Source: a virus. Taken from it: a DNA stretch of 45,012 nucleotides. Within the stretch, counting starts at the first letter, position 1; the number at the start of each line of letters is the position of its first letter. Below are positions 1,792 through 44,605 of this stretch, piece after piece. The notes below the pieces were generated by a model. It ran no database searches. It was not told the origin of the DNA and saw nothing but the letters and a program-made list of their open reading frames with translations. The stretch covers positions 1 to 45,012 of IMG/VR virus record IMGVR_UViG_3300045256_000806; one strand, 5' to 3'. The position numbers and the translations under genes were made by a program.

Positions 1792-2286
1792 ATGGCGTCC
1801 GCGAACCGCGACCAGCTGTCATTCGAAGGGTTGTTCGTCCCCCCTGCACCCACTCCCCGGCCGGCCGACCTCGGCCAGGCGGTGCGCCGGGCGCTGTCCG
1901 AGGCCCTGAAGGGGGCCGCCCGCCAAGGGACGCCCCGCAAGGGCCTGGCCGAGCGCATCAGCGCCGCCGCGTGCCGCGAGGTGAGCGTCCACATGCTGGA
2001 CCGCTTCGCCGCGCCGTCCTGCGAGAACTGGCGGCTTCCGGCCGAGCTGGTGCCCGCCATCGCCCAGGCCACCGGCGACCGCCGCATCGTGGAGCTGCTG
2101 GCCGAGGCCTGCGGCGGCCGCGTCCTCTGGGGCGACGAGGCCGCCGTGGCCGAGCTCGGCGCGCTCCACCTGCAGGAGCGGGACGCGCGCGCCCGACGAC
2201 GATTGCTCGACCGTGCCTTGCCTCCGGCAAGGCGCGCCGAAGTCCTCGACGGCCTCCGCGGCCGATTGGGAGGCGCCGGCGGATGA
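1792..2286 (+). CDS. Hypothetical early protein between ner and A
   Basis: A 164-residue protein that starts one base after the ner stop and overlaps the transposase start by ATGA. It is Ala/Arg/Leu-rich and predicted helical. A short proline-rich N-terminal stretch (about 10-25) is followed by a basic patch with repeated alternation of R and E near 125-150. I recognise no family or catalytic motif. Genes in this position occur in other Mu-like phages of alphaproteobacteria, so co-function with the transposition genes is a reasonable inference but nothing here shows it. Confidence 0.75.
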   Translation: MASANRDQLSFEGLFVPPAPTPRPADLGQAVRRALSEALKGAARQGTPRKGLAERISAAACREVSVHMLDRFAAPSCENWRLPAELVPAIAQATGDRRIVELLAEACGGRVLWGDEAAVAELGALHLQERDARARRRLLDRALPPARRAEVLDGLRGRLGGAGG

Positions 2287-4520
2287 AGCCAGCATCCATC
2301 TCGGGGGGGATGGAGCCAGAAGAGCCGGCGTGGGCCGGCCGGGCAGCCGAACTCCTCCGCGCCGACAGCTTCACCGCCGCCGAACTGGTGGCCCTCGAGG
2401 TTCCGGGTTGGCCGGCCAGCCGGTTCCGGATGCGGGAGTTCCTGAAGAAGCAGGGCCTCAAGCCGTTCCTGCGGGTCCGTCAGGGCGGCCGAGCCGAGGT
2501 GTACCTCACCACCGCCTTCCCGCGCGGCCTTCGCGCGGAGCTGGCGCGGCGCATCATGGCCTTCTTGCCGCTGGGCGGCGCGACGGGTGGCGCAGCCCTG
2601 CCGGCGAACGATGGCGCGCTGACGCGATCGCAGCAGCAGCTCCTCGCCGCAACGCCGCGCCGCGCCACCCGCGCCGAGACACGCGCCGTCGCCGTCCGCG
2701 CCTTCGAGGCGTGGAGCGCGGCTGTCGGGCTGCAGGGACGGCGGGCCGCGGACCGCTTCTCCGAACTGTGGGAAGCCGGGGCCATCGAGGTGCCCGACTG
2801 GGTGACCGAGGCACTGCCCGCGCTCAGCGCCCCTTCGCTCCTGCGCTGGCAGCAGCGCCTGGCGGCCGAGGGCGCCATCGCGCTCGCCGGCGACTACAAG
2901 CCGCGCCTCTCCACCATCGACGCCGACCCGGCGCTGCGCACCGCGGCCGAGGGGCTGATCTACCGGCACCCCCACGCCAAGGGGTCCGATCTCCGCGACA
3001 CCCTGAGGGCTGTTTGCAACGACGGCCGCGACCTCCCCTCGTACCGGGCCTGCTGCCGCTGGCTCGCCGACTGGAAGGCGAAGCGGCGCCAGCTCCATCA
3101 GCACCTCCTCAACCCCGACGCCCACCGCGGACGCTTCATGCCGGCCTTCGGTGACGCGGCCGCCGGCATCGAGCGCCCCAACCAGCTCTGGGAGATGGAC
3201 AGCACCCCCGGCGACGCGATGCTCCGCGTCGCCGACCGGAAGGTGCGCCACACCGTCATCGGCGTGGTGGATGTCCACACCCGCCGGAAGCTGCTGCTGG
3301 TCTGGCCCACCTCCAACAGCGAGGGCATCGCCCTCCTGATCCGCCGCGCCATCCTGGAATGGGGCGTGCCGGAGGCGATCAAGACCGACAACGGCGCCGA
3401 CTATACCTCCCGCGCGGTGTCCCGCGTGCTCGCCGATCTCGGGGTGAGCCACAAGCTGACCCGGCCCTTCTCGCCCGAGGAGAAGCCGCACATCGAGCGC
3501 GCGCTCGGCGCCTTCTCCCACGGCCTGGTCGAGCTGCTGCCGGGCTTCGCGGGGCACAACGTCGCGGAGGCCCAGGCCCTTCGCGAGCGGCAGACCTTCG
3601 CATCCCGGCTGATGTCGCGCGGCGAGGTCGCGGACTGCCCGCTCTCGCCCGAGGAGTTCCAGCGGTTCTGCGACCGCTGGTCCGGCGAGTACCACTTCCG
3701 CCGCCCGCACGCCGGCCTCGGCAACCGCACGCCCGAGGAGGTCATGCGCGCCTGGACCGGGCCGCTCCGCCGGGTGGCGGACGAGCGCGCGCTGGACCTG
3801 CTGCTGGCGCCGGTGGTCGGGCTGCGCACCGTCACGAAGAAGGGCATCCGCCTCGACCGCGGCACCTACATTGCCGCCGCGCTCGGTTCCCTCGTGGGCG
3901 AGCAGGTGGAGTGCCGGCACGATCCGGCGGACCTCGGCCGCATCTACGTCTTCACGACCGAGGGCGCCTTCGTCGCCATCGCCGAGGATCCGGAGCGGAC
4001 CGGCATCGACCGCCGCGCCGTCGCCCAGGCCGCGAAGGCCGTCGCGCGCCGCGGCGTGTCCGAGCAGCGCGCGCGCCTGAAGGAGGCCGCGAAGGCGCTT
4101 CCGAAGGGCGCGGCGCTGGCGGAGGCCATCCTCGACGCCGCGGCGCCCGCGCCGAACGTCGTCGCCTTCCCGCGCGCGGCCGCGCCGCACTCCACGCCCG
4201 CCATCGAGCAGCTCGGCCGCGCCGCGCGCGCCGGCGAGGCGATGCCGCCGGCCGAGCGCTCGGCCGAGGAGGCCGCCCGCGCCGCCTGGGTGGCCGAGAA
4301 GGCCAAGCGCCGCGCCGCCGAGGCGGCCGAGGACAGCGCCGACGCGCAGCGCGGGGCCCGGATCAAGCGCGGCCTCGCGGTGATGGACGCGCTGCTCGCC
4401 GGCGCCGCCGTCGAGCCCGCCGAGGCGGCCTGGTTCGAGGGCTACCGCGAGCTCGGCGAGTTCCGCGTCGCCCTGCGCCTGCAGGGGCTCGACCCCGACG
4501 ACATCCCCGCAACCGCCTGA
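2283..4520 (+). CDS. A: Mu-type DDE transposase A
   Basis: A 745-residue transposase that cuts the phage ends and joins them to target DNA in replicative transposition. Residues about 20-65 form the Mu DNA-binding HTH that reads the end sites (G-W-P-A-S-R-F-R-M-R-E-F). An rve/RNase H-like core carries the catalytic acidic residues: D306 (W-E-M-D-S), D369 (K-T-D-N-G) and E405 (P-H-I-E-R-A). The spacing is D-35-E rather than the longer D-to-E spacing of MuA. The rest is the Mu C-terminal beta-barrel and a helical, Ala-rich tail (about 590-745) for contact with B and ClpX. The ATG at 2283 overlaps the upstream stop; longer in-frame extensions run through the previous gene. Confidence 0.97.
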   Translation: MKPASISGGMEPEEPAWAGRAAELLRADSFTAAELVALEVPGWPASRFRMREFLKKQGLKPFLRVRQGGRAEVYLTTAFPRGLRAELARRIMAFLPLGGATGGAALPANDGALTRSQQQLLAATPRRATRAETRAVAVRAFEAWSAAVGLQGRRAADRFSELWEAGAIEVPDWVTEALPALSAPSLLRWQQRLAAEGAIALAGDYKPRLSTIDADPALRTAAEGLIYRHPHAKGSDLRDTLRAVCNDGRDLPSYRACCRWLADWKAKRRQLHQHLLNPDAHRGRFMPAFGDAAAGIERPNQLWEMDSTPGDAMLRVADRKVRHTVIGVVDVHTRRKLLLVWPTSNSEGIALLIRRAILEWGVPEAIKTDNGADYTSRAVSRVLADLGVSHKLTRPFSPEEKPHIERALGAFSHGLVELLPGFAGHNVAEAQALRERQTFASRLMSRGEVADCPLSPEEFQRFCDRWSGEYHFRRPHAGLGNRTPEEVMRAWTGPLRRVADERALDLLLAPVVGLRTVTKKGIRLDRGTYIAAALGSLVGEQVECRHDPADLGRIYVFTTEGAFVAIAEDPERTGIDRRAVAQAAKAVARRGVSEQRARLKEAAKALPKGAALAEAILDAAAPAPNVVAFPRAAAPHSTPAIEQLGRAARAGEAMPPAERSAEEAARAAWVAEKAKRRAAEAAEDSADAQRGARIKRGLAVMDALLAGAAVEPAEAAWFEGYRELGEFRVALRLQGLDPDDIPATA

Positions 4521-4529
4521 GGAGACACC

Positions 4530-5315
4530 ATGGCAGCCCCCGCCAGCCTAACCGATCTGCAGACAGCGGCCGAAGCTTCCGGCGGCATCGCGCAGCTCCG
4601 CAACGTCGGCGCCTTCGCCGCCGCCCTCGAGGACGCCAGGCGGCGCCCGCACCACCTGCCCGGGCTGGTCTGCATGTATGGCCCCTCGGGCTGGGGGAAG
4701 ACCCGGGCGGCGACCTTCGGCGCGAACCTGCACCGCGCCGTCTACGTCGAGGCGCGCTCCACCTGGACCAAGCGGGCCTTCTGCCGGGCGATCCTGCACG
4801 AGCAGGGCATCGAGCCCGACGGCCGCGTGTACGAGATGGTCGAGCGCATCGCCCAAGGGCTGATGGCCAACGAGACGCCGCTGATCGTGGACGAGGCCGA
4901 CTTCGTCCTGCAGGCGGGCATGATCGAGATCGTCCGCGACATCCACGAGGCCTCGGGCGCCGTCGTGGCGCTGATCGGGGAGGAGCGCCTCCCAAACAAG
5001 CTGCGGGCGGTGGAGCGCGTCCACAACCGGGTCGCCTTCTGGGTGGCGGCGCAGCCCTGCGACCTGCAGGACGCGAAGGAGCTGGCGCGCCTCTACCAGC
5101 CCAAGCTGACCCTAGCCGACGATCTGCTGGAAAAGGTGGTGCAGGCGAGCGCCGGCGGCGCCCGCCGCATCGTGACGAACCTCCACAACATCGCGCTGGA
5201 GGCGAAGAAGGCACCGGCGGAGGTGCTCGACGTCCGGTGGTGGGGCCGCAAGTCGCTCTTCACGGGCGACGTCGAGGCGCGTGCGGCTCTGGCCGCGCCG
5301 CGCAGGGCTGGCTGA
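4530..5315 (+). CDS. B: Transposition target-capture ATPase B
   Basis: A 261-residue AAA+ ATPase. Walker A is G-P-S-G-W-G-K-T (51-58) and Walker B is P-L-I-V-D-E-A-D (117-124). MuB-type proteins form ATP-dependent filaments on target DNA, deliver it to the transposase and protect phage DNA from self-insertion. The gene follows A by nine bases with AGGAGA as ribosome binding site, and its stop overlaps the next ATG. Length is slightly below Mu B (312 residues), mainly because the N-terminal HTH region is short. Confidence 0.95.
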   Translation: MAAPASLTDLQTAAEASGGIAQLRNVGAFAAALEDARRRPHHLPGLVCMYGPSGWGKTRAATFGANLHRAVYVEARSTWTKRAFCRAILHEQGIEPDGRVYEMVERIAQGLMANETPLIVDEADFVLQAGMIEIVRDIHEASGAVVALIGEERLPNKLRAVERVHNRVAFWVAAQPCDLQDAKELARLYQPKLTLADDLLEKVVQASAGGARRIVTNLHNIALEAKKAPAEVLDVRWWGRKSLFTGDVEARAALAAPRRAG

Positions 5316-5899
5316 TGGCAGCTCGAGTATCACCTTCCCACGGCGAGGCGCGGAGCGCGCTCTGGGCTGCCCTCCTCGCGGCATCCGAGCGCAAGGCCCC
5401 GCGCACGAACGCCCTCGCCGACGCCGCCGGCTTGCCTGAGGACACGGCGCTGAAGCTGCTGCGCGCGTGGGTCGCGACCGGGCATGTCGAGCAGACGCGC
5501 GAGCGCCGGCGCGAGGGCGGCTTCGCCTACCGCTGGCGCCCCGTCCGCCGCCTGCCCGAGGCGCCCGAGGGCGGCCGCGCCGAGACCGCGCAGGACCGCC
5601 TGTGGCGCACGATGAAGATGCTGAAGACCTTTTCGGCCGAGGACCTCGCGATCCACGCTTCGGTCCCCGGCCGGCCCGTGTCGCTGCAGACGGCGCGCGA
5701 TTACTGCAACCGCCTGGCCCGCACCGGCCGCTATCTCCGCTTCGTGGAGCGGGGCGTGCAGGGGGGCGCGGCGAGCCTCTACCGGTTCGTCGGCAGCACC
5801 GGTCCGCGGGCGCCCCGCATCGGGCGCGACCGCTCGGTCTTCGACCCGAACATCAACGAGGTCGTGTGGCGCCCGGATGGAGGAAAGGCCGATGGCTGA
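5315..5899 (+). CDS. Hypothetical winged-helix early protein
   Basis: A 194-residue protein overlapping the B stop (TGATG). Residues about 10-60 look like a winged helix: helices around S-A-L-W-A-A-L-L-A-A and D-T-A-L-K-L-L-R-A-W, then R-R-E-G-G-F-A-Y-R-W as a wing. A second similar unit (about 95-155) contains A-E-D-L-A-I-H-A-S-V and Y-L-R-F-V. This two-wing layout suggests DNA binding, possibly in early replication or regulation. Genes with this layout are common directly after B in Mu-like phages, but I know no characterised function. Confidence 0.8.
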   Translation: MAARVSPSHGEARSALWAALLAASERKAPRTNALADAAGLPEDTALKLLRAWVATGHVEQTRERRREGGFAYRWRPVRRLPEAPEGGRAETAQDRLWRTMKMLKTFSAEDLAIHASVPGRPVSLQTARDYCNRLARTGRYLRFVERGVQGGAASLYRFVGSTGPRAPRIGRDRSVFDPNINEVVWRPDGGKADG

Positions 5900-6008
5900 C
5901 CTCGTGCGCGAACTCGCCCCGGTGCTGCGTGGCATCGCCTACCCCGTCCTCGGCGGCTGGGTGGCCGGATACGCCACGGGCTGGCTCCTCGAACAGGTGC
6001 TCCGATGA
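5892..6008 (+). CDS. Small membrane-like protein (38 residues)
   Basis: A short frame linked at both ends: it starts inside the previous gene's last codons and its stop overlaps the next ATG. The middle (I-A-Y-P-V-L-G-G-W-V-A-G-Y-A-T-G-W-L-L) is hydrophobic with a GxxxG-like pattern and could form one membrane helix. No family is recognised. Translational coupling on both sides is the main reason to call it. Confidence 0.6.
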   Translation: MADLVRELAPVLRGIAYPVLGGWVAGYATGWLLEQVLR

Positions 6009-6382
6009 GCGGGAAGAACCGCGCCGCGGCGCTGGCTGCCTGGGCAGCGCCAGCGCCCGACTGGGTGCTGCGCCTCGCCGAAGAGGCCGATGCCACCAGC
6101 CAGGTGCGCGCGGGCGAGCGCCTCGGCCTCAGCCCCTCCACCGTCAACGCCGTCATCCGCGGCCGCTACGGCGCCAAGACCGACCAGGTCGAGCGCGTGG
6201 TCCGCGGCAAGCTGATGGACGCGAAGGTCGTGTGCCCGGAGCTGGGTCCGACGCCGCTCGACGTCTGCCACGACCACCAGGCCCGCGCCGGCGGCCTCGT
6301 GGACACCGGATCCTTCCGGGCGCGCATGCGCCGCGCCTGCAAGGCCTGCCCCCTTTCCCGCTTCTCGCAGGACCCCGCATGA
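6005..6382 (+). CDS. HTH regulator with C-terminal Cys/His cluster
   Basis: A 125-residue protein. The central helix-turn-helix reads A-G-E-R-L-G-L-S-P-S-T-V-N-A-V-I-R-G-R-Y (about 37-56). The C-terminal half has C-P near 78, C-H-D-H-Q (about 88-92) and C-K-A-C-P (about 112-116), a likely zinc site. This combination is widespread in Mu-like early operons, annotated as a small transcriptional regulator; its targets are unknown. Both ends overlap neighbours by ATGA, so it is translated as part of the early chain. Confidence 0.85.
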   Translation: MSGKNRAAALAAWAAPAPDWVLRLAEEADATSQVRAGERLGLSPSTVNAVIRGRYGAKTDQVERVVRGKLMDAKVVCPELGPTPLDVCHDHQARAGGLVDTGSFRARMRRACKACPLSRFSQDPA

Positions 6383-11910: not shown

Positions 11911-12321
11911 ATGCCCCGCCACCCCTACCTCCACTTCCCCCTGTTCGACGTCGCGGAGCGGCACGGCATCGACGCCGCCCTCCTGCTCGCCGAGCGGTTC
12001 GGAGGGCTGGAGCTGGAGGTGCCCCAGACGGCCCGCCCCGGCCACTCCGTCGCCCAGGCGTGCGGCCTTGCCGTGTGGGAGACGCTCGTCGGCCTCGCCG
12101 ACGCGGGAAAGATCCGCAACCGCCGCGTCCACATCCCCATGGGACCGCGCCATCCCGACCGGCTTCGAGCGGCTTGGCGAGAGGGGGAGGTGCGGCGGCT
12201 GACCGACGGCGGCGGAAGCGAGCGCGTCATCGCGACGGAGCTGAGGATCTCCGCGCGCCGGGTGCGGCAGATCCGCGCACGCTTGCGCGAGCCGCGCCGG
12301 CAGGGCACGCTCGACGTGTAG
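11911..12321 (+). CDS. mor: Mor-type middle/late transcription activator
   Basis: A 136-residue protein at the end of the early operon. Residues about 40-80 match the Mor/C dimerisation region (A-Q-A-C-G-L-A-V, V-H-I-P-M-G), followed by a C-terminal HTH: G-S-E-R-V-I-A-T-E-L-R-I-S-A-R-R-V-R-Q-I-R (about 101-121). Mor of Mu binds a dyad upstream of the middle promoter and recruits RNA polymerase. Here the gene is followed, 12 bases after its stop, by one of two near-identical control blocks that fit a Mor target. No separate C gene is seen, so this protein may activate all late transcription. Confidence 0.88.
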   Translation: MPRHPYLHFPLFDVAERHGIDAALLLAERFGGLELEVPQTARPGHSVAQACGLAVWETLVGLADAGKIRNRRVHIPMGPRHPDRLRAAWREGEVRRLTDGGGSERVIATELRISARRVRQIRARLREPRRQGTLDV

Positions 12322-13918: not shown

Positions 13919-14467
13919 GTGCCGCAGCCCTCCTCCATCGAGCTGCTGCCCCTGCCGCTTCGGCAGGCGGTCGAGAAGGCGATCCGGGAAGGGCGCCTGC
14001 CGGACGGCAACGCCGCTACGATCGACGCCCTCGTCTCGATGGTGGGGGCGCACGGCCACCAGGTCAGCCGCTCCGCCATGGGGCGCCACCGCAAGACGGT
14101 GGCGGAGGAGATCGAGGACTTCCGGCAGCAGCAGCAGCTCGCGAAGCTGTGGATGGACCAGGCGCGCGAGAACCCGGACGGCGACGTCGGCCAGGTCGTG
14201 GGCGAGTTGCTCAAGATCATCGCCATGGGGACGGCGCGCGAGCTGCGCCAGGCGGAGGAGCCTGCGGACCCGAAGCAGATCCGCACCCTGGCGGCCGCCA
14301 TCAAGGATCTCGCCATGGGCGACCGGCACCGCACCAAGCTGCGCGCCGAGCTGCTGGCCGAGACCCGGAAGAAGCTCGACGAGGTGGCCAAGGACGTGAA
14401 GGGCCAGCCCCAGCTCGAGGAGATGCTGCGCCGCATCCGGCGCGACGTGTACGGCCTGGAGGACTGA
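13919..14467 (+). CDS. DUF3486 family protein, putative small terminase (gp27-like)
   Basis: A 182-residue protein. The N-terminus S-S-I-E-L-L-P-L-P-L-R-Q-A-V and S-R-S-A-M-G-R-H-R-K (about 43-52) form the DNA-binding part of the DUF3486 family, followed by long helices. In Mu this gene lies just before the large terminase and is the likely small terminase that picks the phage left end for packaging. It has a GTG start with AGGTAGGG upstream. Confidence 0.88.
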   Translation: MPQPSSIELLPLPLRQAVEKAIREGRLPDGNAATIDALVSMVGAHGHQVSRSAMGRHRKTVAEEIEDFRQQQQLAKLWMDQARENPDGDVGQVVGELLKIIAMGTARELRQAEEPADPKQIRTLAAAIKDLAMGDRHRTKLRAELLAETRKKLDEVAKDVKGQPQLEEMLRRIRRDVYGLED

Positions 14468-14470
14468 GGC

Positions 14471-14695
14471 GTGGACAACCAGCACCGCAGGATCAGCGGC
14501 TACCGCGAGCTGACCGAGGCGGAGATCGCCGCCATGAACGAGGCGAAGGCCATGGGCAACGCCATCGGCGGGCTGCTCGACCGCATGAAGGAGCTGCCCG
14601 GGGTGGACCAGCGTGCGCTGGCGATCGCCAGGACGGAGCTGCAGACGGGCATCATGTGGGCGGTCCGCGCCGTCGCTCGCCCCGACGGCTTCTAG
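14471..14695 (+). CDS. acb2: Acb2/Tad1-family anti-CBASS candidate
   Basis: A 74-residue GTG-started protein between small and large terminase. The start (M-D-N-Q-H-R-R-I-S-G-Y-R-E-L) and end (L-Q-T-G-I-M-W-A-V-R-A-V-A-R-P-D-G-F) match the Acb2 family, whose hexamers soak up the cyclic oligonucleotide signals of CBASS immunity. As I recall, Y11 and K26 line the nucleotide pocket of Acb2 from the transposable phage PaMx33; both residues occur here at the same numbers. The middle is about 20 residues shorter than in PaMx33. Function is inferred from similarity; some family members may bind other signals. Confidence 0.85.
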   Translation: MDNQHRRISGYRELTEAEIAAMNEAKAMGNAIGGLLDRMKELPGVDQRALAIARTELQTGIMWAVRAVARPDGF

Positions 14696-14700
14696 CCTCC

Positions 14701-15105
14701 ATGGCCGCCCGCCCCCCGCCGGCCTGGCTGCAGGCCGCCATCCTGGCCCTGCACGTCCACCTGAACGTCCGCACGCAGCGCTGGCTCGCGGGCGGCGACC
14801 CGCGCTTCGGGTGGTCCGCGCAGAGCTGGGCGGCGGCGCAGGCGGGCTCCGCCGGCGCGGCGGGCACGGTGGCGCTGATCGACCGTCTGTTCTGGGAGGG
14901 CCACTGCAAGGCCGAGCACTTGCGCGCCGCGGTCGGGCTGCCTCCCGACACCGCCGATTGGCGCAACGTGGCGGGTGCGCTCTGGGCGCTCGCGCTCATG
15001 GCCGCCGTGGCGATCGGCGCCGTTGCGCTCATGGGCTGGGCAGCCCCCTTGGCCGCCCTGGGAACCGCCGCCGGCGCCGCCCTCGGAAGGGCGCTGCGCC
15101 CGTGA
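14701..15105 (+). CDS. Hypothetical membrane protein
   Basis: A 134-residue protein starting five bases after the acb2-like stop. The N-terminal part is soluble with several Trp, and the C-terminal third (about 93-130) has one or two hydrophobic helices (A-L-W-A-L-A-L-M-A-A-V-A-I-G-A-V-A-L). The stop overlaps the terminase start by GTGA. No family is recognised. Its place beside an anti-defence gene makes it a candidate accessory gene. Confidence 0.75.
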   Translation: MAARPPPAWLQAAILALHVHLNVRTQRWLAGGDPRFGWSAQSWAAAQAGSAGAAGTVALIDRLFWEGHCKAEHLRAAVGLPPDTADWRNVAGALWALALMAAVAIGAVALMGWAAPLAALGTAAGAALGRALRP

Positions 15106-16424
15106 CGAGGCCGGCCCTCGAGCTCTACGACTACCAGCGCCGGTGGCTGCAGGACCGCAGCCGCTTCAAGGCGGCCATGTACGCCCGCCAGACGGGCAAG
15201 ACCTTCACCACGACGCTCGAGGTGGTGGACGACAGCTTCGAGGCGATGGTCACCGGGAAGCGGTCCCGCTGGGTCATCCTGTCCCGCGGCGAGCGCCAGG
15301 CGCGGGAGGCCATGGAGGAGGGCGTGAAGCGCCATCTCAAGGCCTACCAAATCGGCTTCGAAAGCTCGGAGGGCGACGAGGTCTTCGGGGAGACCCGCGT
15401 CACCCAGCTGGAGGTCACCCTCCCCCAGGGCGGTCGCATCACGGCGCTGCCGGCCAACCCGGACACCGCCCGCGGCTTCTCGGCCAACGTCTTCCTCGAC
15501 GAGTTCGCCTTCCACCAAAAGGACCGCGAGATCTGGAAGGCGCTCTTCCCGGTCATCTCGGCCGGCTGGAAACTCCGCGTCGCGAGCACCCCGAACGGGA
15601 AGGGCAACAAGTTCCACGAGATCATGACGGGGCAGGACGAGACCTGGTCCCGCCACATCGTGACGATCGTGCAGGCGGTGGCCGACGGCCTGCCGCGCGA
15701 CGTCGAGCAGCTCCGCGCCGCCATCAACGACGAGGACGCCTGGGCGCAGGAGTTCATGCTGGAGTGGCTCGACGAGGCCTCCGCCTGGCTGCCCTACGAG
15801 CTCATCTCCGCCTGCGAGGACGCCAAAGCCGGCCACCCGGTGCTGTACGCCGGCGGAGGGGTCTTCGTCGGCGTGGACATCGGCCGCCGCCAGGACCTGT
15901 TCGTCATCTACGTGCTCGAGCTCGTGGGCGACGTGCTCTGGGAGCGCGAGCGGGTGGAGCTCAGGCGCGCCTCCTTCGCCGAGCAGGACGACGCGCTCGA
16001 CGACATCTTCGCGCGGTACCGGGTGCTCCGCTGCTGCATGGACCAGACGGGCATGGGCGAGAAACCGGTGGAGGACGCCCAGCGCCGCCACGGCTCCATG
16101 CGGGTGGAGGGGGTGCTGATGACCGCGCCCACCCAGCTCCGGCTGGCGACGCTCGCAAAGGAGGCCTTCGAGGACCGGCGGGTCCGCATCGCCGAGGGCG
16201 ATCCTCGGCTGCGCGCGGACCTCCACAAGATCCGCAAGGTGGTCGGTCCCACCGGCATCCCGCGCTTCGTGGCGGACCGGGACGAGGGCGGCCACGCGGA
16301 CCGCGCCTGGGCGCTCTTCCTCGCGCTAGCGGCCGCCGCCAGCCCCGTCGCGCCGATCGAGTACCGCGCCCTCGGCCGCCCCCGCGTCTCCTCCAACCTC
16401 AGCGAGTTCCGAGGCCCCCGATGA
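15102..16424 (+). CDS. Terminase large subunit (gp28-like)
   Basis: A 440-residue DNA-packaging motor. Walker A is A-R-Q-T-G-K-T (28-34), Walker B is V-F-L-D-E-F (130-135), and the coupling motif is near A-S-T-P-N-G-K (161-167). The C-terminal RNase H-like nuclease begins G-V-D-I-G-R-R-Q-D, with D259 as first metal ligand, and continues to C-C-M-D-Q-T-G. Mu-type terminases package headful from the left end and carry flanking host DNA. It has a GTG start overlapping the previous stop, and its own stop overlaps the portal start. Confidence 0.95.
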   Translation: MTRPALELYDYQRRWLQDRSRFKAAMYARQTGKTFTTTLEVVDDSFEAMVTGKRSRWVILSRGERQAREAMEEGVKRHLKAYQIGFESSEGDEVFGETRVTQLEVTLPQGGRITALPANPDTARGFSANVFLDEFAFHQKDREIWKALFPVISAGWKLRVASTPNGKGNKFHEIMTGQDETWSRHIVTIVQAVADGLPRDVEQLRAAINDEDAWAQEFMLEWLDEASAWLPYELISACEDAKAGHPVLYAGGGVFVGVDIGRRQDLFVIYVLELVGDVLWERERVELRRASFAEQDDALDDIFARYRVLRCCMDQTGMGEKPVEDAQRRHGSMRVEGVLMTAPTQLRLATLAKEAFEDRRVRIAEGDPRLRADLHKIRKVVGPTGIPRFVADRDEGGHADRAWALFLALAAAASPVAPIEYRALGRPRVSSNLSEFRGPR

Positions 16425-18004
16425 GCGAGACCACCACCCCGCCGGCCGAGGTACCCCGCGCGGCCATCCGGATCGCCCGCGTCCGCCTCAAGACCGAGGT
16501 CGCGACCCTCGCCACCGACCCCAACGCCTGGACCTGGGGCGGGCGCCTCGAGCCGAAGGACGCCGTCCTCGTGCCCCGCGGCGGCCGCCGAGCGCTCGCC
16601 CACTACAAGGCGCTCAAGCGCGACCCCCGCGTGGACACGGTGCTCGGCAAGCGGAAGTCGGCCCTCGTCGGCCGCGAGTGGGAGCTCGAGCCGGCTGACG
16701 AAAGCGCCGGCGCCGCCCAGGCCGCGGAGCGCGTGAGGGAGGCGCTGAAGCCCCTCGCCATGTCGAAGGCCGTGGGTGACCTGCTGGAAGCGCTCTTGCT
16801 CGGCTATCTGCCCGGCGAGGTGATGTGGGACGTGGGCGGCGGCCTCGTGGTGCCGGCCGAGATCCGCCCGCGCGACCCGGAGCGCTTCGTCTTCCGCGAC
16901 GACAGCGACGGCAAGGGCCCGCAGCTCCGCCTCCTCGTGAAGGGCAACATCGTGGACGGCGTCGAGGTGCCGCCCATGAAGTTCGTGGTGCACCGCCACC
17001 GCGGCGAGTTCGGCGACCCCTACGGCCTCGGGCTCGGCCACCAGCTGTTCTGGCCGTGCTTCTTCAAGCGGCAGGGCATCGGCTTCTGGCTCAACGGGCT
17101 GGAGAAGTTCGGCCAGCCCACGGCGGTGGGGAAGTACCCGAACGGCACCTCCGACCCCGACCAAGAGAAGCTGCTGGCGGCGCTGAGCGCCATCGCCTCC
17201 GACACCGGCGTCGCGATCCCGGAGGGGATGGCCGTGGAGCTCCTCGAGGCGAAGCGCGCCGGGTCCTTCGACAGCTACAACACGCTCGTCCGCTACTTCG
17301 ACGAGGAGATCACCCTCGCCGTGCTCGGCGAGACGCTCACCTCCACCGCCGGCGACCGCGGGTCGCAGTCGCTGGGAAAGGTGCACAACGAGGTCCGGCT
17401 CGAGCTCACCAAAGCCGACGGCGACGCGCTGGCGGAGACGCTGAACGCCAGCCTGATCCCGTGGGTCGCCGCGCTGAATGGCGTGGGGGAGAACCTGGTC
17501 CCGCGGATCTGGTGGAAGGTCGAGGAGGGCGAGGACCTCAACCAGCGCGCCGAGCGCGACACGAAGATCAAGGGCCTCGGGTTCAGGCCGACGCTCGAGT
17601 ACATCACGGGCACCTACGGCGAGGGGTGGGAGGAGGCGCCGGCGCCCGAGCCGCCGCCAGGCGCGCCGCCGGGCCCGCCGCCGATGCCGCCGGGCCTCGC
17701 GGCCGCCTTCGCGGAGGCGGCTATGGCCGCCCGCGCCGCGACGCTGCCCGCGGCCGACGACGGGCGCGACAATCCCGAGCGCGTGGCCGACTTGCTCGAC
17801 CGCCGCACGGCCGGCCAGCAGGAGGCGCTGCTGCGGCCGGTCATCGCGCTGATGGAGCGCGCCGCCACCCTGCAGGAGGTCGCGGACGGCCTGGCCACCC
17901 TCTACCCGCGCCTCGACACGGAACGGCTGGGCGAGGCGATGGCGCAGGCGATGATCCTCGCCAGCCTCCTCGGCCGAGACGACCTGGCCGCCCAGGGGGC
18001 CTGA
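16421..18004 (+). CDS. Portal protein (DUF935, gp29-like)
   Basis: A 527-residue protein of the DUF935 portal family, forming the ring through which DNA enters and leaves the capsid. Typical segments are R-D-P-R-V-D-T-V-L-G-K-R-K (about 68-80), E-A-L-L-L-G-Y-L-P-G-E-V-M-W (about 124-137) and the G-D-P-Y-G-L-G-L loop (about 199-206). A Pro-rich linker (about 408-425) leads into a helical C-terminal region. It starts with ATG overlapping the terminase stop (ATGA). Confidence 0.95.
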   Translation: MSETTTPPAEVPRAAIRIARVRLKTEVATLATDPNAWTWGGRLEPKDAVLVPRGGRRALAHYKALKRDPRVDTVLGKRKSALVGREWELEPADESAGAAQAAERVREALKPLAMSKAVGDLLEALLLGYLPGEVMWDVGGGLVVPAEIRPRDPERFVFRDDSDGKGPQLRLLVKGNIVDGVEVPPMKFVVHRHRGEFGDPYGLGLGHQLFWPCFFKRQGIGFWLNGLEKFGQPTAVGKYPNGTSDPDQEKLLAALSAIASDTGVAIPEGMAVELLEAKRAGSFDSYNTLVRYFDEEITLAVLGETLTSTAGDRGSQSLGKVHNEVRLELTKADGDALAETLNASLIPWVAALNGVGENLVPRIWWKVEEGEDLNQRAERDTKIKGLGFRPTLEYITGTYGEGWEEAPAPEPPPGAPPGPPPMPPGLAAAFAEAAMAARAATLPAADDGRDNPERVADLLDRRTAGQQEALLRPVIALMERAATLQEVADGLATLYPRLDTERLGEAMAQAMILASLLGRDDLAAQGA

Positions 18005-18005
18005 C

Positions 18006-19286
18006 GTGTCGGGCGCGGCCTCAGCCCAGGCGATCGGCCTGCCGTTCGACGAGGCGATCGCGTTCTTCCGGAACAAGCTGTCGGTCCCGACGCCGCGCTG
18101 GAACACGCTGTGGCGGGACCAGCATGCGGCCGCCTTCACCGTCGCCGGCGCCATGTCGGCGGACCTGCTCGCGGATATCCGCGCGGCGGTGGACAAGGCG
18201 CTGGCCGAGGGCGGGACCCTCGCGGAGTTCCGGCGCGACTTCGACGAGATCGTCCAGCGCCGCGGGTGGCGCCACAAGGGCAAGCCCGGATGGCGGGCGC
18301 GGGTGATCTTCGAGACCAACCTGCGCACCGCCTACGCCGCCGGCGCCTGGCAGCAGGCGCAGGACACGAAGGATAGCCGTCCCTTCCTTCGGTACTCGGC
18401 GATCCTCGACAACCGGACGCGGCCGCTGCACCGGCAGTGGCACGGCACGACCCTGCCCATCGACCACCCGTTCTGGCGCACCCACTACCCGCCGAACGGC
18501 TGGGGCTGCCGCTGCACCGTCATCACGCTCAGCCAAGCGCAGCTGGACGCGCGCGGCTGGAAGGTCACCGACCCCGCTCCGCTGTCGGGCGGCGTGCCGC
18601 GCCGTGTGCGGCAGCCGGACGGGACGGAGCGGATAGAGGAGGTGCCGCCCGGCGTGGATCCGGCGTGGGCGTACAACGTCGGCAGGGCCGCGTGGGGCGA
18701 GCGCCTGGACCGGGCGACGATGGACGCTTGGGCGCGCAGCGGCGCCGCATCGTGGAAGCCCCTCGGCGGCGGCGACTGGCGAAGCGAAGGCCGGCCCGAC
18801 GTGCTGCCGGCGACCACACCGCGGGCGACGCTCGGCGTGCCGGCGGCGGACCTCGCCGCCCTGGCGGCGGCGATCGAGCGCGTGATCGGCGGCCCGACGG
18901 GCACGCTGCAGCCTCCCGCGGGCCCTGCCGCGCACGTCACCGCCGCGGCGCTCGCCGAGCACCTCGACATCAACCGCGCGGTGTTCGTGCCCTTGCTGCG
19001 CGAGGTCGTCGAGGATCCGCAGGAGCAATGGCTGTCGTTCGAGCGGCACGAGCTGACGGGCAAGGTCGTGCTCCGCCAGCGGTTCGTGAGCCGCCTGGCG
19101 CTCGGGCCGGACCGCGGGTTCGTGGCGGTGGCGCAGGTCGTGGCCGGGCGCCTCGAGGCCTGGACCTTCGTCCCGATCCGCCGGGCCAACGAGCTCGGCC
19201 GCAGCCGCATCGGCACGCTGGTGTGGGCGAGGGAGGAGGAAGGGGACCGCACCGAGCCGACCGGAGGGCCACCGGATGACGGTTAG
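18006..19286 (+). CDS. F: gpF-type minor head protein fused to a PBECR-like domain
   Basis: A 426-residue protein. Residues about 10-180 are the Mu gpF/SPP1 gp7 family (F-E-T-N-L-R-T-A-Y-A-A-G, then H-P-F-W-R-T-H-Y-P-P-N-G-W-G-C-R-C), a minor capsid protein bound near the portal. After a variable middle, residues about 326-420 (F-V-P-L-L-R-E-V-V, W-L-S-F-E-R, V-V-L-R-Q-R-F, A-W-T-F-V-P-I-R) resemble the phage Barnase-EndoU-ColicinE5/D-RelE-like nuclease class (PBECR2). Such domains are thought to be injected with the DNA. A GTG start is used, one base after the portal stop. Confidence 0.88.
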   Translation: MSGAASAQAIGLPFDEAIAFFRNKLSVPTPRWNTLWRDQHAAAFTVAGAMSADLLADIRAAVDKALAEGGTLAEFRRDFDEIVQRRGWRHKGKPGWRARVIFETNLRTAYAAGAWQQAQDTKDSRPFLRYSAILDNRTRPLHRQWHGTTLPIDHPFWRTHYPPNGWGCRCTVITLSQAQLDARGWKVTDPAPLSGGVPRRVRQPDGTERIEEVPPGVDPAWAYNVGRAAWGERLDRATMDAWARSGAASWKPLGGGDWRSEGRPDVLPATTPRATLGVPAADLAALAAAIERVIGGPTGTLQPPAGPAAHVTAAALAEHLDINRAVFVPLLREVVEDPQEQWLSFERHELTGKVVLRQRFVSRLALGPDRGFVAVAQVVAGRLEAWTFVPIRRANELGRSRIGTLVWAREEEGDRTEPTGGPPDDG

Positions 19287-19951: not shown

Positions 19952-21619
19952 ATGGCTCAAGGCGCCGCTGGCGGCCGCGCGCTGCGCAGTCTCGCGGGGA
20001 ACCAACTGCGGTACGGCGACAACCTTCCGCTCATGCAGGACATGGCGACGGCGAGCGTCGATCTGATCTACCTGGACCCGCCGTTCAACAGCCAGCGGAA
20101 CTACAATCTCATCTACCGCAACCTGACCGGCGCGCCCGTGCCCGAGCAGGAGGTCGCCTTCTGCGACGCTTGGGAGATGGATCCCGAGAAAGAGGAGATG
20201 CTGCGGAACATGCCGCGCTTCCTCAAGGAGCACGACCTTCCTCGGGACGTTGTTGAGTTCTGGCGCGTGTGGATGACGTCCCTGCGGGAGACGCAGCCGA
20301 GGCTTCTCGCGTACCTGCTCTACATGTCGTGGCGGCTGGTCGAGATGCGCCGCATCCTCAAGCCCACGGGCAGCCTGTACCTGCACTGCGACCCGACCGC
20401 GAGCCACTACATCAAGGTCATCCTGGACAGCATATTCGGCCACGGGAACTTTCAGAGCGAGATCATCTGGAAGCGCACCAGCGCGCACGGCAGCGCCAAG
20501 CGCCACGGCCCAGTGCACGACACGATCCTGATGTACAGCCGCGGCAAGACGTTCACGTGGAACGACGTGCGCATGGCTCTCGACGAGGACTACGTCGAGG
20601 AGTTCTACACGCATCGCGACCCGGATGGACGTCGCTGGCGTCGATCTGATCTCACCGGCGCGGGCACGAGAAACGGAGAGACCGGCCAGTCCTGGCGCGG
20701 TATCGACGTGACAGCGAAGGGCCGGCACTGGGCCCACCCTCCCAGCGTCCTCGATGAAATGGACAAGGCGGGCCGAATCCACTGGCCCCAAAAGGCCGGC
20801 GGCATGCCGATGCTGAAGCGCTACCTCGACGCGTCGAAGGGCATGCCCCTGCAGGATGTGTGGACCGACATCCGACCCATTCACAACCTCGGCGCAGAGC
20901 GATTGGGATACCCGACGCAGAAGCCTATCGCCCTCCTGCGCCGCATCATCGAGGCGAGCAGCAATCCCGGTGACGTGATCCTTGATCCGTTTGCCGGCTG
21001 CGGGACCGCGATCTACGCGGCGCACGAGGCCAACCGCCGCTGGATCGGGATGGACATCGCCATCCTGTCGGTCCGCATCGTCCGCGACGTGCTGCTGAAG
21101 CGCTACGGCCTCCGCGAGGGACTGGAATACCAGATGTCCGGCATCCCGATGAGCGTCGAAGGTGCACAGGAGCTGTTCGATGCCGACAAGCGCCAGTTCC
21201 AGCATTGGGCGGTCGAGCTGTCGGGCGGCTTCGTGAACAGCCGCTACAGCGGAGACCGGGGCATCGACGGCCGCCTTTGGTTCGAGACCGATGCGGGCCT
21301 CAGATCCATGGTGCTGTCGGTGAAGGGCGGCGGCGCCACGCCGGCGTTCGTGCGCGAGCTGCGCGGCACAATGGAGGACGAGACGCACTGCGAGATGGGG
21401 GGCTTCATCTGCATGCAGACCCCGACCAAGGGCATGCTTGAGGCCGCTGCGTCGGCCGGGATGTACACCTACAAGGGGCAGCAATACCCCAGGCTTCAGA
21501 TCCGCACCGTCGGTGAGTTGCTGGAGGGCAAGGGCTTCGTCACGCCTTCGCGCGTGCAGACACTCGGATGGACCTATGGCCAAGGCCAGCTGCCATTGGC
21601 CGGCGTCGCCGCGTCTTGA
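19952..21619 (+). CDS. Beta-class DNA methyltransferase fused to an Mrr-like nuclease domain
   Basis: A 555-residue protein. Motif IV is L-D-P-P-F-N (41-46) and motif I is D-P-F-A-G-C-G-T (345-352); motif IV first marks the beta class, which methylates adenine N6 or cytosine N4. The C-terminal part (about 412-530) resembles Mrr-type PD-(D/E)xK endonucleases: G-D-R-G-I-D-G (434-440) followed by L-S-V-K (455-458), where the usual E/Q before x-K is Ser. It may be a self-contained modification-restriction enzyme, or a methylase with an inactive targeting domain. AGAGAAGGG precedes the ATG. It stands alone, ending at a GC-rich hairpin. Confidence 0.9.
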   Translation: MAQGAAGGRALRSLAGNQLRYGDNLPLMQDMATASVDLIYLDPPFNSQRNYNLIYRNLTGAPVPEQEVAFCDAWEMDPEKEEMLRNMPRFLKEHDLPRDVVEFWRVWMTSLRETQPRLLAYLLYMSWRLVEMRRILKPTGSLYLHCDPTASHYIKVILDSIFGHGNFQSEIIWKRTSAHGSAKRHGPVHDTILMYSRGKTFTWNDVRMALDEDYVEEFYTHRDPDGRRWRRSDLTGAGTRNGETGQSWRGIDVTAKGRHWAHPPSVLDEMDKAGRIHWPQKAGGMPMLKRYLDASKGMPLQDVWTDIRPIHNLGAERLGYPTQKPIALLRRIIEASSNPGDVILDPFAGCGTAIYAAHEANRRWIGMDIAILSVRIVRDVLLKRYGLREGLEYQMSGIPMSVEGAQELFDADKRQFQHWAVELSGGFVNSRYSGDRGIDGRLWFETDAGLRSMVLSVKGGGATPAFVRELRGTMEDETHCEMGGFICMQTPTKGMLEAAASAGMYTYKGQQYPRLQIRTVGELLEGKGFVTPSRVQTLGWTYGQGQLPLAGVAAS

Positions 21620-43017: not shown

Positions 43018-43802
43018 GCGACAACCCACCCGTGATCGAAGGCCAAGCTGAGGCGCTCGAGGAGGAGAAGACACCCGAGCAGCTCGCCGCCGAGGCGGAG
43101 GCTGCTGCACGGGCCGCCTTCGAGGCCGAGCAGCTCGCCATCTCGACCGCCGTCGGCGAGAGGGCGTGGGCGCTCGCCTCGGGGCGCGGCGGCGAGGTGC
43201 GCGGTACCGGCCGCCTCGGCGAGGGACGTTGGGCCTGCATCCTCGAGCGCGACGGGGCCTTCGAGGTTCATGAGCTGGCAAACCCGCCGGTGCTGGTGCG
43301 GGTCCGTGCCTCGTTTTTCGAGGCCGAGCAGGTCCTGCACCGGCTGATGGAGGGCCGGAGCGCGGAGGATATCCCGGGCGAAGTCGAGCCGGGGCCCGCG
43401 CCCACGCCCTACGGGTCGAGCCCGGAGGCCAGGCTGGAGTGGGTGAAGGACGAGGCGAAGCGCCGCATAGACCGCGAGGCGGAGCTGGCGCGCCTGCGAT
43501 ACGTCACGCCGGGGGCTGGCCAGGCCATGGCGTACAAGGCGAAGGAGGAGGAGGCGCGGATGATCGTGGCTTTTGCACCGGGGGTGGACCTTGACGCCCC
43601 CTCGTTCCCGTTTCTGGCCCTCGAGGCCGAGGCCACGGGCCAGACGCTGCGCCAGGTGGCCGGGGTGGTTGTCGCGGCCGCGGACCTCTGGCGCCATGTG
43701 GGAGCCCGGATCGAGGTCCTGCGCCTGTCGGCGAAGCGCGCCGTCGAAGCGGCCGCGACCGAGGCCGAGGCGAGGGCCGCTGCCCGGGTGGATTGGCCCT
43801 GA
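43014..43802 (+). CDS. Hypothetical tail-associated protein
   Basis: A 262-residue protein overlapping the previous stop by ATGA. It begins with an acidic helix, then has a beta-like middle (R-W-A-C-I-L-E-R-D-G-A-F-E-V). Near 160-175, L-R-Y-V-T-P-G-A-G-Q-A-M-A-Y is a motif often found at the ends of phage tail proteins. Its precise role is unknown. Confidence 0.75.
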   Translation: MSDNPPVIEGQAEALEEEKTPEQLAAEAEAAARAAFEAEQLAISTAVGERAWALASGRGGEVRGTGRLGEGRWACILERDGAFEVHELANPPVLVRVRASFFEAEQVLHRLMEGRSAEDIPGEVEPGPAPTPYGSSPEARLEWVKDEAKRRIDREAELARLRYVTPGAGQAMAYKAKEEEARMIVAFAPGVDLDAPSFPFLALEAEATGQTLRQVAGVVVAAADLWRHVGARIEVLRLSAKRAVEAAATEAEARAAARVDWP

Positions 43803-44605
43803 TGGACCTGCTCCGCCCCACCGCGCCCGCTCACCCGGTCGCCCCCTACCTCGGCGGCAAGCGGAACCTGGCCGCCCGCATCATCGCTCGCCTCCGGGAG
43901 ATCCCGCACGTCACCTATGCCGAGCCTTTCGTCGGCATGGGTGGCGTCTTTCTCCGGCGGCCGTGGACGGCGCGCGCGGAGGTTATCAACGACGCCAGCC
44001 GGGATGTCGCGAACCTCTTCCGGATCCTGCAGCGCCACTACGTGCCCTTGATGGACATGCTGCGCTGGCAGGTGACCAGCCGGGACGAGTTCGAGCGCCT
44101 GGCGGCCGCCTCGGCCGACAGCCTCACGGATCTCGAGCGGGCGGCGCGCTTCCTCTACCTCCAGCGGACGGCCTTCGGGGGCAAAGTGGCTGGCCGGAAC
44201 TTTGGGGTGTCGCCGGCGACGCCCGGCCGCTTCGACGTGGCGAAGCTCGGGCCGCTGCTGGAGGCGGTCCATGGCCGCCTTTCCGGAGTGGTGATCGAGT
44301 GCCTGCCCTGGCGCGAGCTGCTCCGGCGGTACGACCGGCCGGAGACGCTCTTCTACCTGGACCCCCCTTATTGGGGGTGCGAGGAGGACTACGGGGCGGG
44401 CCTCTTCGGCCGGGAGGAGTTCGAGGCGCTCGCGGAAGCCCTTGCCGGCCTGCGCGGCCGCTGGCTCCTCAGCCTCAACGACGTCCCCGAGGTGCGCCGG
44501 GTGTTCGGCCGGTTCCGGCTCGAGCGGGTGGAGACGAGCTATGGCATCTCCCGGGAGCCCAGCGCGCGGGGCAGGGTGGCCGAGGTCCTGATCAGCCCCG
44601 CTTGA
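43802..44605 (+). CDS. Dam-family (D12 class) DNA adenine methylase
   Basis: A 267-residue enzyme. P-Y-L-G-G-K-R (15-21) and E-P-F-V-G-M-G-G-V-F (41-50) form the S-adenosylmethionine site, and D-P-P-Y (187-190) is the catalytic motif, in the alpha-class order. It probably methylates adenine N6 in a short site. It lies at the right end, where Mu keeps its mom modification gene, so a role in protecting packaged DNA from restriction is likely. The ATG overlaps the previous stop. Confidence 0.93.
   Translation: MDLLRPTAPAHPVAPYLGGKRNLAARIIARLREIPHVTYAEPFVGMGGVFLRRPWTARAEVINDASRDVANLFRILQRHYVPLMDMLRWQVTSRDEFERLAAASADSLTDLERAARFLYLQRTAFGGKVAGRNFGVSPATPGRFDVAKLGPLLEAVHGRLSGVVIECLPWRELLRRYDRPETLFYLDPPYWGCEEDYGAGLFGREEFEALAEALAGLRGRWLLSLNDVPEVRRVFGRFRLERVETSYGISREPSARGRVAEVLISPA

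Follow-up and report, generated by a model that had tools for sequence, protein, structure and literature searches.

A compact Acb2-family protein encoded between the terminase genes of a Mu-like transposable phage

What is a gene for a 74-residue protein doing between the two terminase genes of a phage, and does it encode a sponge for cyclic nucleotides, as a sequence-only reading of this DNA had proposed? The window, by which we mean the whole stretch of DNA that was analyzed, is a 45,012-bp IMG/VR virus record with 73% GC. It encodes a MuA-type transposase (1971-4520), a MuB-type protein (4530-5315) and a Mor/C-like activator (11911-12321), as well as lysis and DUF2730 genes. The position reported for the candidate sponge gene, acb2, is correct, and the gap between gp27 and TerL harbors an orphan gene as well:

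13919..14467, + strand: Mu gp27-like small terminase subunit (PF11985, E 4.1e-26; phrog_426, E 3.4e-29)
14471..14695, + strand: acb2, compact cyclic-oligonucleotide sponge by homology (PF24729, 8h2j, fold match)
14701..15105, + strand: 134-aa orphan gene; product helical, with hydrophobic C-terminal half, no Pfam or PHROG family
15102..16424, + strand: large terminase subunit TerL (PF03237, E 3.4e-28; PF17289, E 1.2e-23)
16421..18004, + strand: Mu-type portal protein (PF06074, E 4.8e-104)
18006-19286: MuF head protein with a C-terminal PBECR2 nuclease-like domain (PF18810, E 5.2e-14)

The orphan has a sole relative in the IMG/VR scan, on the contig L002 (74% identity), and its structure model is of low confidence (pLDDT 57). 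The combination of MuF and PBECR2 in a single protein is a fusion of the MuF-toxin type. A DNA methyltransferase gene in the head cluster (19952-21619; PF01555, E 3.3e-40), with a weak C-terminal match to NA-iREase1 (E 4.3e-5), is likely another accessory insertion, in addition to the one discussed below. A second DNA methyltransferase gene (43793-44605; phrog_56, E 6.9e-72) lies near the right end.

The acb2 reading frame begins with a GTG codon, 3 nt past the gp27 stop (14467), and a GGAGG motif lies ahead of this start. Comparison with the nearest relative, that of L002 (95% identical), reveals 13 synonymous and 3 non-synonymous codon differences, which speaks for a translated gene whose frame is under purifying selection. 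The window and L002 diverge more strongly from about position 14651 onwards: near the 3' end of the gene, their nucleotide identity falls from about 95% to about 75%, a step that resembles a recombination boundary. A frameshift or truncation as the cause of the length of 74 residues can be ruled out, since many relatives agree with it in length and at both ends.

The protein matches the Pfam family PF24729 (Acb2/Tad1 hairpin) over profile positions 1-58 of 58, with an E-value of 7.5e-20 and a score of 71.3 bits, to be compared with a curated cut-off of 27 bits. In a phmmer search of the PDB, the single sequence retrieved the PaP2 Acb2 entry 8h2j (E 5.8e-13), which represents the protein with 3'3'-cGAMP (PMC11722364), and the T4 Acb2 entry 7uq2 (E 0.0065). 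With a profile built from 22 viral homologues, the E-values were 1.6e-28 for 8h2j, 3.5e-27 for 8ixz and 9.8e-8 for 7uq2, and all significant matches were Acb2 entries. Relatives are numerous among phages, as tblastn found 695 phage records at E<=1 and 255 at E<=0.01. The NCBIfam scan assigned no family, and the Pfam scan gave no match to the Tad2 family PF11195.

Structure prediction leads to the same family. The AlphaFold2 model of the monomer, calculated with the alignment of the 22 viral homologues, is a helical hairpin of the Acb2 type (helices 16-40 and 47-69, mean pLDDT 88.7), with residues 1-15 unstructured and residues 1-4 of low confidence, so that a short N-terminal helix is absent from the model. 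The nine best Foldseek matches in the PDB are all Acb2 chains (8h2j/8h2x/7uq2), each with probability 1.00, and the next, unrelated match has an E-value of 1.0. The TM-score against Acb2 chains, normalized by query length, is 0.75, and the rmsd of the gapped alignments is near 4.5 A; part of this deviation is due to the different hairpin tip. Among viral models, the named top matches are mostly annotated as "Acb2/Tad1 hairpin domain-containing".

Residue conservation was scored in an alignment of 21 homologues from varied hosts and of varied lengths, and extends to the known pocket residues:

14471..14494, + strand: N-terminal MDNQHRRI, residues 1-8, Acb2 signature (N3, Q4 and H5 in 20/21, I8 in 21/21)
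14501..14503, + strand: codon of Y11 (PaMx33 Y11, T4 Y8), dinucleotide-pocket residue (20/21)
14546..14548, + strand: codon of K26 (PaMx33 K26; 19/21)
14591..14608, + strand: loop of the hairpin tip (residues 41-46), connecting helices 16-40 and 47-69 (AlphaFold2 model, alignment)
14612..14614, + strand: codon of R48 (PaMx33 R67), invariant (21/21)
14633..14635, + strand: codon of T55 (PaMx33 T74, T4 T68), invariant (21/21)

R66 and P71 are invariant as well. Y11 and K26 were said to be in place, and both align exactly with their PaMx33 counterparts. We use PaMx33 R67 and T74 as invariant positions only. The numbering of T4 Acb2 was anchored on two landmarks, Y8 and F82, and these fix the equivalence of T55 with T68. 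In T4 Acb2, the Y8A exchange results in a binding-deficient protein and abolishes function (PMC12657218, PMC12657230), and T68M is described with lowered binding affinity (PMC12657230).

Together, the PF24729 and PDB profile matches, the fold matches and the pocket residues bear out the membership in the Acb2 family, and the protein is a well-supported, ordinary member. We put the probability at roughly 0.9 that the Mu-like transposable phage encodes with it a counter-defense protein of the Acb2 family, whose synthesis probably accompanies that of the late packaging proteins.

The protein had also been described as having a shorter middle than PaMx33 Acb2, with possible consequences for the nucleotides that are bound. 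It is indeed 19 residues shorter than its PaMx33 counterpart (93 aa, translated from KU884561), and the missing residues map to the hairpin tip. The impression of a peculiar deletion, however, did not hold up, since the compact form is common. In the alignment, length variation of Acb2 is confined to the tip, where the longer proteins carry 19-38 extra residues (at residues 41-46 here), and the spacing between K26 and R48 is 21 residues in compact forms, as against 40 to 59 in extended ones. The 21-residue spacing is found in Mu-like IMG/VR contigs, in the phages Lsp-JY19, Munch and Ac42, and in the Pseudomonas phages Zuri, MR5 and 5400. Among the 60 best phage records, most matches span 74 to 76 codons. 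This list is biased by the compact query; the PF24729 profile, which is independent of this query, is insert-free at the tip. By these alignments, compact hairpins are common in phages of varied hosts and form a class of conserved length.

A change of ligand range, with the dinucleotide pocket kept and the central trinucleotide sites altered or lost, is the alternative that fares best, although we consider it unlikely. The shortened tip would be compatible with it, as would the location of R48, which the model places at the start of the second long helix, within its first turn and directly beside the tip. On the other hand, neither R48 nor T55 varies between compact and extended proteins, so that the sites they serve are presumably kept, and the compact form is common and agrees with an insert-free Pfam profile. 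The dinucleotide pocket has been described at the two termini of Acb2 (PMC10419184), away from the tip to which the length variation is confined, and should therefore be unaffected by the compact tip; an effect on trinucleotides is possible. The suggestion that the shorter linker confers a special nucleotide specificity thus finds no support in the comparisons. All Acb2 structures that we found (8h2j, 8ixz, 7uq2) are of extended proteins, and none of a compact Acb2 was among them. To learn which parts of Acb2 are required for the binding of di- and trinucleotides, compact proteins offer a cheap and useful test. It would be more speculative still, and we think improbable, that the compact class has a ligand range of its own (for example dinucleotides only, or other trinucleotides) and in addition forms a separately mobile cassette among Mu-like phages.

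Given the family assignment, our data suggest a model in which six helical hairpins most likely assemble into an Acb2 hexamer. By homology, this hexamer would hold cyclic dinucleotides, trinucleotides or both from the CBASS enzymes of the host, and CBASS effectors would be expected to stay off during phage assembly. From its place among the late packaging genes, acb2 would be expected to be expressed late. According to a review, Acb2 is active during induction, but not during lysogeny (PMC12043709). That the protein neutralizes CBASS is what we infer from its relatives.

Which host would be concerned? The nearest host-borne relatives of the packaging module are found in Acetobacteraceae, where one prophage (L148) has a portal protein 50% and a MuF protein 56% identical to those of the window, and this makes the proposed alphaproteobacterial host plausible; no host record of the phage was found that would confirm it. 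In the gp27-TerL gap of the same prophage lies a gene (5807-6214, - strand) for a 135-aa protein, in which roughly 55 N-terminal residues are fused to an Acb2 hairpin. A scan of one genome per species detected related acb2 genes in only two, a Roseomonas MAG (66%) and Luteimonas terricola (62%), neither of which contains the phage of the window. The two genomes whose acb2 homologues are the nearest host-borne ones gave no hit in a search for SMODS-type CD-NTases. Such enzymes are encoded in 14 of 250 sampled Acetobacteraceae genomes, and CBASS is thus probably present but uncommon in this family.

The scarcity of CBASS genes in the likely host family would fit a protein that mainly counters Thoeris gcADPR or type III CRISPR cA3 instead of CBASS. 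PF24729 joins the hairpins of Acb2 and Tad1, and sponges can bind several signals (PMC12043709), which also lends this alternative some weight. It nevertheless appears quite doubtful to us, because the protein is closest to Acb2 in both sequence and fold, and because the N-terminal antiparallel beta domain of Tad1 is absent from it, the model being all-helical and strand-free. On the Klebsiella oxytoca plasmid CP056499.1 (L051, 340-1046), two different sponge genes lie in tandem, one for Tad2 (PF11195, E 7.7e-26) and one for Acb2, with an overlap of 4 nt at the acb2 start; this overlap of DUF2829 and acb2 is listed for many Klebsiella plasmid records.

If the Acb2-family reading is correct, why does the gene reside in a packaging module? 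A related TerL (61-78% identity in the best segments) is encoded on 80 viral contigs, of which 79 lack acb2 in the flanks, which extend up to 3.5 kb on each side; the sole exception is the near-identical contig L002. A scan for gp27 relatives likewise returned L002 only. The gp27-TerL gap measures -16 to 248 nt in 34 relatives with recognizable gp27, as opposed to 638 nt in the window. Conversely, L003 encodes an Acb2 that is 80% identical, yet the adjoining TerL is only 25% identical. The lack of acb2 in nearly all TerL relatives, the wide gap and this mismatch all indicate that acb2 and the orphan gene form an exchangeable insertion between gp27 and TerL. Other Mu-like modules carry related acb2 genes elsewhere: between TerL and portal (L003, L004, L006-L013, L027, L149), between portal and MuF (L016), before gp27 (L020), before TerL (L017), or upstream of the whole packaging module (L021, L150). 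In the window, as in many relatives, acb2 is part of the late packaging module, which could hint at recruitment of the protein as an accessory factor of packaging or of the head. Such a role is very improbable, given the many TerL relatives that do without the gene, the occurrence of Acb2 genes beside replication, lysis or head genes elsewhere, and the retention of the nucleotide-pocket residues.

Compared with known systems, the Acb2-family protein described here is closest to Acb2 of PaP2 and PaMx33 (p26/gp24; 8h2j, 8h2x, 8ixz). Apart from the fold and the positions of Y11 and K26, it shares with them the N-terminal motif MDNQH..I.GYR.L...EI..MN..K and the C-terminal motif R...I..T..Q.G.M...RA.A.P..F, so that the claim of diagnostic motifs at both ends is confirmed; identity is about 37%, and the 19 tip residues are missing. 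PaMx33 acb2 lies beside primase and MazG genes and a terminator, whereas acb2 of the window lies between terminase genes. T4 Vs.4/Acb2 (7uq2) has the same hairpin fold, and Y11, K26 and T55 have identical counterparts in it, but it lacks the MDNQH start and has an extended tip; T4 F82 corresponds to A69 here, as in PaMx33. The homologues from Lsp-JY19 (Leptolyngbya), Munch (Salmonella), Ac42 (Acinetobacter) and Mu-like IMG/VR contigs have the same length of 74 residues as well as the compact spacing, and differ in the genomic positions of their genes; no experimental description of them was found in the literature that we searched. What is mildly new is the recognition of this compact class, and the evidence that acb2 moves as an accessory gene among Mu-like packaging modules, while the picture of the Acb2 family as such is unchanged by the present case. 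In the Beetrevirus JBD67, also Mu-like, acb2 likewise lies in the head gene cluster, but after the putative capsid genes, and encodes a protein of 108 residues with a long tip.
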